In this document: piece after piece, positions 1-2,937 of the stretch
Numbering within the stretch: the first letter of the stretch is position 1
Layout of the letters: each line of letters begins with the position of its first letter
Source of the DNA: Kiritimatiellia bacterium
GTDB taxonomy: Bacteria > Verrucomicrobiota > Kiritimatiellia > RFP12 > UBA1067
Reading direction: 5' to 3'
Length of the DNA stretch: 35,387 nucleotides
Assembly: GCA_017628025.1 (NCBI GenBank)
Contig: JAGBZX010000026.1
Location: 1-35,387 of the forward strand
Program-made: the position numbers and the translations under genes
The notes under the pieces: model-generated
Told to the model about the DNA's origin: nothing
The model's database searches: none
Seen by the model: the letters and a program-made list of their open reading frames with translations, nothing else

Positions 1-1023
1 CCTGAGAATGGTTTCTTCGGTGTTGCTCCTGGCACATCGATGGATTCTAACCCCAACGCACTTCTCTCTTGCAAGAAAGGCACGATCTTCACGAACGTCG
101 TTCTTACACCTGACGGTGATATTTGGTGGGAAGACATGGGTATCAAGGCCCCAGCAGAAGGTATTGACTGGAAGGGCAATCCTTGCTATGTTTGCGCAGA
201 CGATCCTTACCGTATGGGTCCAAAGCCTGGCATGACCAAGAAGGAAATTAAAGAATCTGGTTATGTAGCTGCTCACAAGAACTCTCGCTTTACAGCACCT
301 GCTGAGAATTGCCCAGTTCTTGACAAGGATGGCTTCAAGGGTATGTATGAAGGCAAGCCCACAGGTGTGCCGATTGACGCTATCCTCTTTGGTGGTCGTC
401 GTCCTTCTACGATTCCTCTCGTAAATGAGGCTAAGAGCTGGACTCACGGCGTATTTATGGGTTCTGCTGCTGGTTCTGAAGTTACAGCTGCTGTTATTTC
501 CGATCAGATTGGTCAAGTTCGTCGTGACCCAATGGCGATGCTTCCTTTCTTCGGTTACAACGTTGCAGACTACTTCCAGCATTGGCTTGAAATGGAGCGC
601 ACAAGCGCTGATGCAACCAAGCTTCCGAAAATTTACTTCGTCAACTGGTTCCGTAAGGGCGATGACGGTCGCTTCATGTGGCCTGGCTTTGGTGACAACA
701 GCCGCGTTCTTAAGTGGATTTGCGATCGTCTCGATGGTAAGGTCAAGGCTACGAAGACGGCTATTGGTAACCTCCCGCTTGCTAAGGATATTGACCTTTC
801 CAACAATACAGGCAAGTTCAAAGTCGTTCCTGCTGACCTCAAGGCTATCCTCAAGGTTGACAAGGAAGGCTGGGTGAAGGAAATCGAAACTATCGGCAAG
901 AGCTACGACGAATATGATGCTAAGGCTTCTAAGGGTTCCAAGGAGATCTCTAAGACAGCTAAGCGCGTTCCTAATGCACTTCGTCAGGTTCTCGCTGATG
1001 TAACTGCAGAACTCAAGAAGTGA
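1..1023 (+). CDS. pckG: Phosphoenolpyruvate carboxykinase (GTP), 3' part only
   Basis: Partial gene: the frame is open from base 1 and 340 C-terminal residues are present out of the roughly 600 usual for GTP-type PEPCK. The enzyme interconverts oxaloacetate and PEP with GTP/GDP in the cytoplasm; in anaerobes it often runs as the CO2-fixing, GTP-forming step toward succinate. Family blocks seen in order are ENGFFGVAPGTS near the window start, FGGRRPSTIPLV, HGVFMGSAAGSEVTAA, PFFGYNVADYFQHWL, and a VNWFRKGDDGRFMWPGF block with the WPGFGDN nucleotide-site region. The P-loop (kinase-1) part lies upstream of the window. Codons are strongly biased toward ggt, aag, ctt and cgt, as in a highly expressed gene and unlike the next gene. 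The TGA stop overlaps the GTG start of hydE (GTGA), so the two may be translationally coupled. Confidence 0.97.
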   Translation, partial: PENGFFGVAPGTSMDSNPNALLSCKKGTIFTNVVLTPDGDIWWEDMGIKAPAEGIDWKGNPCYVCADDPYRMGPKPGMTKKEIKESGYVAAHKNSRFTAPAENCPVLDKDGFKGMYEGKPTGVPIDAILFGGRRPSTIPLVNEAKSWTHGVFMGSAAGSEVTAAVISDQIGQVRRDPMAMLPFFGYNVADYFQHWLEMERTSADATKLPKIYFVNWFRKGDDGRFMWPGFGDNSRVLKWICDRLDGKVKATKTAIGNLPLAKDIDLSNNTGKFKVVPADLKAILKVDKEGWVKEIETIGKSYDEYDAKASKGSKEISKTAKRVPNALRQVLADVTAELKK

Positions 1024-1988
1024 GTATAAGCTTCAAGCGTACACTTGAGTGCGCGCTTGAAGCGCCTCGAAATATCCCGGCGAGAGACCTCGCCGGGATG
1101 CTTTCTTGTAATGATAAGTCGGTAGTAGCTGATTTATTTGCAGCTGCTAACGAAGTATCGAAAAAATGTTCAAAGGTGCTTTTAAAGAGAGCGCTTATTG
1201 AATTTTCTAATATTTGTTCTCGTGATTGTTATTATTGCGGCATTCGAAAATCGTCTCCTTTAATAAATAGATATCACATGACGATAGAGGAGCTTCTTAA
1301 GGTATCAGAAGAGGCAAAGGAAGAGGGCTTTACGGCAATCGCTCTTCAAGGCGGAGAAATTGAATCAGAGGCTAATACAGCTTTTGTTGAAGAATTTTTG
1401 TCAAGAGTTGATATCCCAGAGATTACGCTCTCGTTAGGTGAGCAGACTACAGATGTTTATAAGAGATGGAAGGATGCTGCAAAGGGTAAGCTTTTAAGGT
1501 ATTTGCTTCGAATTGAGACGTCAAGTACTGAATTGTTTTCTAAGATTCATCCCCCAGAGGCATCATTTAACAAGCGTTTAGGTGCGATTAGAAAACTAAA
1601 AAGTCTTGACTATATTACAGGGTCTGGTGTTATGATTGGGCTACCTGGTCAGGCGATAGATGATTTAGCAAATGATATAGTTTTCTTTGGTGACGAAAAA
1701 CTCGACATGGTAGGAATGGGGCCTTATATTCCTTGCGATTCTACGCCATTACAAGCGCCTACTTTTTCTTCCCAAGAGCGTTTAGAGTTATCACTAAAGA
1801 TGATAGCGTTAACAAGGCTTTATCTTTGGGATGTGAATATAGTTTCTTCCACGGCATTAGAAGTTCTATCTAGCGGAGCAAGGGATATTGCATTGCGAGT
1901 AGGAGCTAATGTTATTATGCCTAATTTTACTCCGAACAAGTATCGTTTAGAATACCAACTATACCCTGGTAAACAACAAATAAAATAA
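1020..1988 (+). CDS. hydE: [FeFe]-hydrogenase maturation radical SAM protein HydE
   Basis: HydE is one of three maturases (HydE, HydF, HydG) that build the H-cluster of [FeFe]-hydrogenase. It is a radical-SAM TIM-barrel enzyme acting in the cytoplasm. The 322 residues carry the SAM [4Fe-4S] motif CSRDCYYC (C66, C70, C73) directly after IEFSN, as in characterised HydE, followed by the LQGGE and IGLPGQ blocks and MGPYIPCDSTPL. The C-terminus stops at YQLYPGK plus four residues, without the CxnCxxC of the accessory cluster found in some HydE proteins such as that of Thermotoga; that cluster is known to be dispensable. The GTG start at 1020 overlaps the pckG stop, and the next ATG (1098) would cut into the conserved N-terminal helix. 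hydF, hydG and the hydrogenase genes are not in the window. BioB-like enzymes are the alternative but fit the motifs less well. Confidence 0.93.
   Translation: MSISFKRTLECALEAPRNIPARDLAGMLSCNDKSVVADLFAAANEVSKKCSKVLLKRALIEFSNICSRDCYYCGIRKSSPLINRYHMTIEELLKVSEEAKEEGFTAIALQGGEIESEANTAFVEEFLSRVDIPEITLSLGEQTTDVYKRWKDAAKGKLLRYLLRIETSSTELFSKIHPPEASFNKRLGAIRKLKSLDYITGSGVMIGLPGQAIDDLANDIVFFGDEKLDMVGMGPYIPCDSTPLQAPTFSSQERLELSLKMIALTRLYLWDVNIVSSTALEVLSSGARDIALRVGANVIMPNFTPNKYRLEYQLYPGKQQIK
1030..1063 (+). other. Perfect 10-bp inverted repeat at pckG/hydE junction (hairpin 1)
   Basis: The arms are gcttcaagcg (1030-1039) and cgcttgaagc (1054-1063), with a 14-base loop. The element starts 7 bases after the pckG stop and lies inside the first codons of hydE. 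No U-tract follows it, so it is not a standard intrinsic terminator. It could protect the 3' end of the abundant pckG message or attenuate hydE translation. Confidence 0.6.
1074..1099 (+). other. Perfect 11-bp GC-rich hairpin in hydE 5' coding region (hairpin 2)
   Basis: The arms atcccggcgag (1074-1084) and ctcgccgggat (1089-1099) flank a 4-base loop, agac. It stands out as very GC-rich in AT-rich surroundings, and it follows hairpin 1 after only 10 bases. Downstream is gctttcttg, which is too T-poor for a classical terminator. The stem must be unfolded for hydE translation, so it may lower hydE expression relative to pckG. Confidence 0.6.
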
Positions 1989-1989
1989 T

Positions 1990-2937
1990 ATGAAAAAAAT
2001 TATATTAACTGTTGGCATTTTTCTTGCTGCTGTTTTTTGCTTGAAGGCAGATTTAAACCCTATTTCAAGTGTAACAAATGATGTTACATGCCGCGCATTG
2101 TTCTTAAAGGAGATGGCTCGCAAGAGTGAAGAGCTTAAACTTGAAACGGCATATTTTGAAAACGCAAGTGGGCTTACGCCAAATTCTAGAATTACCGTTT
2201 CTGATTTAACAAAGATTGCTCTTGCTGCGCTCAAAGAGCCAGATTTAGCAAGGATTTGGGCAGAGACAGATTGCGAGATTCAGATTACAGGACCAAATCC
2301 TCGAAAAGAGGTTCTTGTTCATGCGTATAAGAAATATATGAAGACATGGGGAGATTTTGTAAAGCAATATAAGTTTCTTGGCGGCAAGGGCGGCAGCTTG
2401 TTCTATAGAAAACCGCCGCTTTCAACAAGGAGCCATGTCTTAGTTACTGAGGTTGAAGGTCAAAAAATTCTAATTACATTTGCAGGCGCTCTTTTTCATG
2501 ATGATGCTTTTTTGTATGATATTGAAATAATTAATCTAGCAAAGGCAATGATGCGCGGCGAGGAAGTAGTTCTTCAAGGGTTACTTAAGGATTTTGAAGC
2601 TAAAGGCGGTGCATTTGAGTTTGTTACATTAACAGGCAAGAAACTTTCATATAGTAGTAAGTATGTTAATATGCCACATGTGCCTGCTTCAACTACGAAA
2701 ATCGTAGCAACGCTGTGCTTGCTAGATCATGTTAAAGATCTTTCAACAAAGCTTACTGTAAGAGAAAGTGATATTGTAGGTGGTAGTGGGTTTAAGTGTT
2801 ATGCTGGTGATCAGATGACATATGAAGATGCGATTCGCGCACTAATGCTCCCATCTTCAAATACGATAGCAAACTCAGTAGCGTCAAATGTTGGCGCGAT
2901 GATTTTAGAGAAACGCATTAAGGATATAGAGAGATAA
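1990..2937 (+). CDS. D-Ala-D-Ala carboxypeptidase-like protein with circularly permuted motif order
   Basis: 315 residues with an N-terminal signal peptide (1 to about 20, LKA before D), so likely periplasmic. The sequence is clearly of the DacA/S11 penicillin-binding type, but the halves are swapped. Residues 31-90 match what normally follows the SxN motif (helix FLKEMARKSEELKL, then YFENASGLTPNS and the SDLTKIALAAL helix). Residues 128-190 match the normal C-terminus with a KTG-like KGGS (133-136) and the strands TEVEGQKILITFAGA. Residues 205-240 match the normal N-terminus (LTGKKLSYSSK, then the nucleophile motif S234-T-T-K237). The chain ends just after SSN (289-291) and NSVASNVGAMIL. Order seen: KGG, SxxK, SxN; normal order: SxxK, SxN, KTG. 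The frame is uninterrupted. It starts 2 bases after hydE. Family assignment is firm; activity is unknown because the third motif lacks its Thr/Ser. Confidence 0.85.
   Translation: MKKIILTVGIFLAAVFCLKADLNPISSVTNDVTCRALFLKEMARKSEELKLETAYFENASGLTPNSRITVSDLTKIALAALKEPDLARIWAETDCEIQITGPNPRKEVLVHAYKKYMKTWGDFVKQYKFLGGKGGSLFYRKPPLSTRSHVLVTEVEGQKILITFAGALFHDDAFLYDIEIINLAKAMMRGEEVVLQGLLKDFEAKGGAFEFVTLTGKKLSYSSKYVNMPHVPASTTKIVATLCLLDHVKDLSTKLTVRESDIVGGSGFKCYAGDQMTYEDAIRALMLPSSNTIANSVASNVGAMILEKRIKDIER

Follow-up and report, generated by a model that had tools for sequence, protein, structure and literature searches.

A secreted S11-type protein of a Kiritimatiellia bacterium that is very likely a natural circular permutant of phage-tail lineage

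The gene at positions 1990 to 2937 (forward strand) of the window, by which we mean the whole 35,387-nucleotide stretch of Kiritimatiellia bacterium DNA that was analysed, very likely codes for a natural circular permutant: a secreted domain of the serine DD-peptidase type (family S11, PBP/beta-lactamase fold), inferred to have been permuted once, in or near a phage-tail lineage. The segment order, the retained motifs, the independent relatives and purifying selection in those relatives are shown; the fold is predicted by a model, and both activity and origin are inferred. Few folds in biology have been studied as much as the PBP/beta-lactamase fold, and the only permutants of it known to us are engineered ones (e.g. 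PMC3334891). The original prediction, made from sequence alone, knew of no described natural permutant in this peptidase family. None of the PBP/beta-lactamase fold was found in the open-licence literature searched, which is no proof of absence, and permutation goes unmentioned in a 2025 survey of the catalytic cores across the superfamily (PMC12073871).

Gene layout and segment order

S11 enzymes carry their motifs in the order SxxK, SxN, KTG. The 315 aa ORF, which has an ATG start, instead runs from the signal peptide through FLKEMARKSEELKLETAYFENASGLT, KGGS, a linker and STTK to SSN. Reading of the sequence predicts a signal peptide at residues 1-20 (MKKIILTVGIFLAAVFCLKA; 1990-2049, forward strand as are all features below). 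Residues 35-188 (2092-2553) correspond to the C-terminal segment of normal S11 enzymes and include the third motif K133-G-G-S136 (2386-2397), the equivalent of the KTG box. The putative linker between the ancestral C- and N-termini comprises approximately residues 189-207 (2554-2610), since in the AlphaFold model a helix extends up to 188 and the following strand starts from 208. Residues 208-315 (2611-2934) correspond to the N-terminal segment, with the catalytic SxxK motif S234-T-T-K237 (2689-2700) and the SxN motif S289-S-N291 (2854-2862). The chain ends 24 residues past SSN (TIANSVASNVGAMILEKRIKDIER). What would come next in a normal-order enzyme (FLKEMARKSEELKL...YFENASGL) starts instead at residue 38, directly behind the signal peptide. 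Residues C34, C243 and C270 (2089-2091, 2716-2718 and 2797-2799) are invariant across the Kiritimatiellae permuted members; one of the three lies at the new N-terminal boundary, where a disulfide could possibly pin the new terminus.

Profile searches support the reversed order. The Pfam S11 profile (PF00768) matches with 32 bits, against a cut-off of 27.6, in two stretches, the best of which aligns residues 38-86 with profile positions 122-170. Beta-lactamase2 positions 20-108, the N-terminal half of the normal fold, match residues 229-311. A custom profile, for which 16 normal-order S11 proteins were used, matches the protein twice and in reversed order: its positions 135-212 fall on residues 36-114 (E 2e-13) and its positions 47-132 on residues 223-303 (E 8e-14). 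As a control, 29 normal-order S11 open frames of the same class each gave one collinear match to this profile, and a further locus with two adjoining partial frames (L039) also has the normal order. Within this set the order is reversed only in the window protein and in the G007 protein described below. The reversal is far above chance. The protein thus passes the S11 profile cut-off and has STTK and SSN, with a third box KGG that lacks the threonine; since the motif order is K-x-G, SxxK, SxN, we classify it as a permuted variant rather than an ordinary S11 member. As circular permutation demands, both segments are homologous to a normal-order relative, they are swapped and they form a single domain, the last point being a prediction.

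The original prediction therefore held in its main parts: the motif order and the positions of KGGS, STTK and SSN, the break just after SxN with the following segment behind the signal peptide (both by the ORF translation), a linker at about 190-207, and the circular permutation of a DD-peptidase fold (by the reversed profile matches, two AlphaFold models, structural matches and relatives). The S11 model search that it proposed gave two matches in reversed order rather than one collinear match. Two parts required correction. The protein is not unique but belongs to a larger family of permuted proteins. Among normal-order proteins, its closest relatives are the S11 domains of phage virions and not the host DacA.

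The window is one contig (C11) out of the 45 that make up a metagenome-assembled genome of 1.45 Mb, whose completeness is 71%. One base upstream of the permuted gene lies a HydE-like radical SAM gene (1020-1988, forward strand), whose HydE match of 249 bits is slightly under the curated cut-off of 254.6. The end of a PEPCK-like gene was recognised by eye at 1-1023. Since these three genes overlap or nearly touch, they may form one transcript. The permuted gene stands alone, without fusion. No S11 gene, of normal order or otherwise, was found beside HydE in the loci of 29 relatives, but neither were the other window genes, hence an empty site cannot be defined.

Predicted structure

AlphaFold2 modelling with 12 rows, being six permuted sequences (one partial) plus the separate halves of three normal-order ones, predicted one compact domain (pLDDT 93.3, pTM 0.91). 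A model from the six permuted sequences alone (pLDDT 90.4, pTM 0.90) has the same elements, so the fold was not created by the normal-order halves. Residue n of the first model is protein residue n+20. In the predicted fold, Lys133, Ser234, Lys237, Ser289 and Asn291 would be grouped the way they are in ordinary DD-peptidases; this is a prediction without measured distances.

Structural matching was performed by VIA-align on Foldseek candidates and was repeated once; the DD-peptidase match rests on it. Model residues 10-186 (protein 30-206) align with DD-peptidase residues ~120-300, with 6muq (Z 9.9, rmsd 3.3, 159 aligned), 6azi (Z 9.8) and PBP5 1nj4 (Z 9.1); over the DD-peptidases matched Z ranged from 8.6 to 9.9 for ~140-160 residues, in keeping with the PBP/beta-lactamase fold. 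Model residues 177-292 align with residues 32-153 of PC1 beta-lactamase (1ome_B, Z 5.4). For 1ALQ, an engineered beta-lactamase permutant, the alignment covers model residues 137-292, starting at chain residue 256 and continuing round to residue 153 (Z 6.3). A match across the new join was also obtained with RG13, in which TEM-1 is permuted (Z 7.2). These beta-lactamase Z values are modest by themselves and are cited for the segment order. The comparison with PBP5-type enzymes suggested in the original prediction thus yields one predicted domain with its segments matched in permuted order. Plain Foldseek against PDB gave no match with E below 0.001, which is expected because the aligner is sequential and the chain permuted.

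Compared with S11 DD-carboxypeptidases and endopeptidases (PBP5/DacA, PBP7; PF00768), the protein is alike in fold, SxxK, SxN and K-x-G, and the family profile recognises both of its halves. It differs from PBP5-type enzymes in its permuted order, in the KGG of the Kiritimatiellae forms and in the absence of the PBP5 C-terminal beta domain. The engineered permuted class A beta-lactamases (1ALQ from PC1, TEM-1 in RG13) have the same fold and are permuted as well, but ours is natural; PC1 CP254 was opened near residue 254 whereas the window protein is cut just after SxN. The permuted NlpC/P60 proteins (LRAT, YaeF/YiiX; PMC3142127) are likewise natural permutants, in a superfamily that includes cell-wall peptidases, but they are papain-like cysteine enzymes with a fold unrelated to S11.

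Permuted relatives and phylogeny

Among rumen Kiritimatiellae/Verrucomicrobia assemblies, the same permuted order was found at the C-terminus of a GH2-domain protein of 1109 aa (G007, JAEEHL010000094) and in a 730 aa protein that combines a glucuronoyl-esterase-like domain with the permuted domain (G216, JAFYDR010000048). A third (G215) contains the start of the same esterase fusion cut by the contig end, and its permuted order is seen in part. Plasmids of Staphylococcus saprophyticus, S. haemolyticus and S. simulans encode a 257-259 aa 'serine hydrolase' that is the permuted domain alone, with KTGT, SITK and SSN and without signal peptide. These plasmid genes (L050:4995-5768, L051:4995-5768, L052:4995-5774) begin exactly at the domain boundary. 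Given this start and the missing signal peptide we infer that the staphylococcal product probably stays in the cytoplasm. A convergent Mur ligase family gene adjoins the permuted gene in S. saprophyticus and S. haemolyticus. Staphylococcus phages ZCSS1 and UHP46 (Twortvirinae) encode a 439-aa tail-type protein with the permuted domain at its C-terminus; the paper on UHP46 makes no mention of a serine hydrolase (PMC11861072). Finally, two IMG/VR contigs encode BppU-collagen tail proteins (743 and 742 aa) that end in the permuted domain, near cell-wall-lysis genes; for these prophage-like contigs a staphylococcus-like host is inferred.

All permuted members have a common cut point and invariant P-A-S-x-x-K, S-S-N and G-G-K-x-G, so that S and K of SxxK, the complete SSN, and K133 and G135 of the window protein are conserved throughout. 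The third box is KGG in the Kiritimatiellae members and KTGT in the staphylococcal and phage members. A dN/dS of 0.06-0.14 between relatives shows purifying selection on the permuted domain; distant pairs are saturated at synonymous sites. The G+C content of the domain, from 25% (staphylococcal plasmid) to 67% (G007), is within ~6 points of the surroundings in each host, which argues against very recent exchange.

The permuted form was found in only 4 of 346 genomes of the class, whereas the query rejoined to the normal order matches 209 of those 346; normal S11 genes are therefore common and the permuted form rare. A phylum-wide search of 388 evenly drawn genomes gave no match outside the window's own genome. 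Homologues of the esterase part number well over 100 in the family, and since many of their frames, at ~400 aa, are too short for an extra domain, the permuted module looks like an addition. Glucuronoyl-esterase-like proteins are greatly expanded in the family, with up to five copies per genome and some frames above 1000 aa.

In a tree built from rejoined sequences the seven permuted forms included fall on one side of a branch (support 92/75, below the strict threshold; present in 90% of bootstrap trees). Their sister is a normal-order tail-like protein from a Pseudosulfitobacter plasmid (100/98), and the wider group around them consists of S11 domains from phage virions (100/99). Cellular DacA, including the host genome's own normal-order DacA, is placed elsewhere. 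In 500 label shuffles, the number of order changes needed was always higher than the observed one. By parsimony we infer that the normal order is ancestral and that permutation occurred once, in a phage-type lineage. The window protein belongs to the phage-virion S11 lineage by this grouping; it does not qualify as a phage tail protein itself, having only a signal peptide before the domain and ordinary chromosomal neighbours. The nearest normal-order relatives, vB_EliS_R6L gp77, the Mwe-JY26 protein and the Pseudosulfitobacter plasmid protein, have, to varying degree, the signatures GGSG, ITGxNAR and GGK[ST]G in common with the permuted forms.

The virion proteins of Erythrobacter phage vB_EliS_R6L (L059:1317-3584) and Microcystis phage Mwe-JY26 (L060:1896-3470) have their normal-order S11 domain followed by an apparent lectin-type (LamG) domain, and these two S11 domains form their own branch. 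Three candidate relatives were rejected: Pseudomonas phage PA1C matches by tail repeat sequence only and has no S11 domain, MT837822 encodes an ordinary normal-order DacA, and an Aliarcobacter plasmid 'serine hydrolase' has the normal order, as judged solely from the match position near the gene start.

Proposed mechanism, alternatives and significance

In the explanation we favour, the chain would have been opened in the loop between the helix after SxN and the next helix, with the old C- and N-termini tied by a short linker. Ser234 would be the nucleophile and Lys237 the base, acting outside the cytoplasm on D-Ala-containing peptidoglycan stem peptides. The change from KTG to KGG may alter substrate recognition, and possibly weakens normal DD-carboxypeptidase activity in the Kiritimatiellae members, for which biochemical data are lacking. 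The permutation would have arisen once, in or near the phage tail-protein lineage of S11 domains. Later, Kiritimatiellae may have taken up the domain, either as a separate protein with a signal peptide or as an extension of secreted carbohydrate-active enzymes, and staphylococcal plasmids would also have acquired it later. Two main models exist of how proteins become permuted, one of them by way of duplication (PMC3320104); no tandem-duplication intermediate or remnant was detected with the S11 profile in the six frames of the window.

A bolder reading, which we consider somewhat less likely than not, is that the module arose in phage tail tips, became portable and was taken over by bacteria. 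With its termini relocated, it could be attached by its N-terminus to a tail shaft, to a signal peptide or to a secreted enzyme that degrades polysaccharides, and bacteria would carry it at the end of their own enzymes, where it would act on the cell wall.

An unlikely alternative is a folded domain without enzymatic activity that binds peptidoglycan and so anchors secreted carbohydrate-active enzymes, or phage tails, to it. Its C-terminal attachment to a GH2 enzyme, glucuronoyl-esterase-like enzymes and phage tail proteins, and the KGG of the Kiritimatiellae forms, are in favour. Against it, SxxK, SxN and the lysine and second glycine of the third box are invariant in all permuted members and under purifying selection, and the staphylococcal and phage members keep KTGT. 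It is similarly improbable that the permutation arose more than once, with this surface loop as the fold's easiest opening point. The hosts are distant, the group support is limited and 10% of bootstrap trees lack a single permuted group; however, the cut point is identical in all members, the normal-order sister has a continuous loop there, and the label shuffles oppose several origins.

An assembly or binning artefact, the misjoin that the original prediction had warned of, is all but excluded, a judgement with no reads behind it: the window does come from an incomplete metagenome-assembled genome, but divergent sequences of the same order occur in separate rumen assemblies, complete plasmids and complete phage genomes, the reading frame is open and intact, and the window elsewhere has no S11 remnant. 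Recent origin from the host DacA is ruled out: its gene is intact and has the normal order, and the tree places it at a distance.

A plain 'serine hydrolase' annotation hides such permuted proteins. The family connects an enzyme of phage tails with plasmid genes of staphylococci and with carbohydrate-active enzymes from the rumen. Being natural and having normal-order sisters, it would permit tests of the way in which permutation comes about and of whether an active site of the PBP type can tolerate it.
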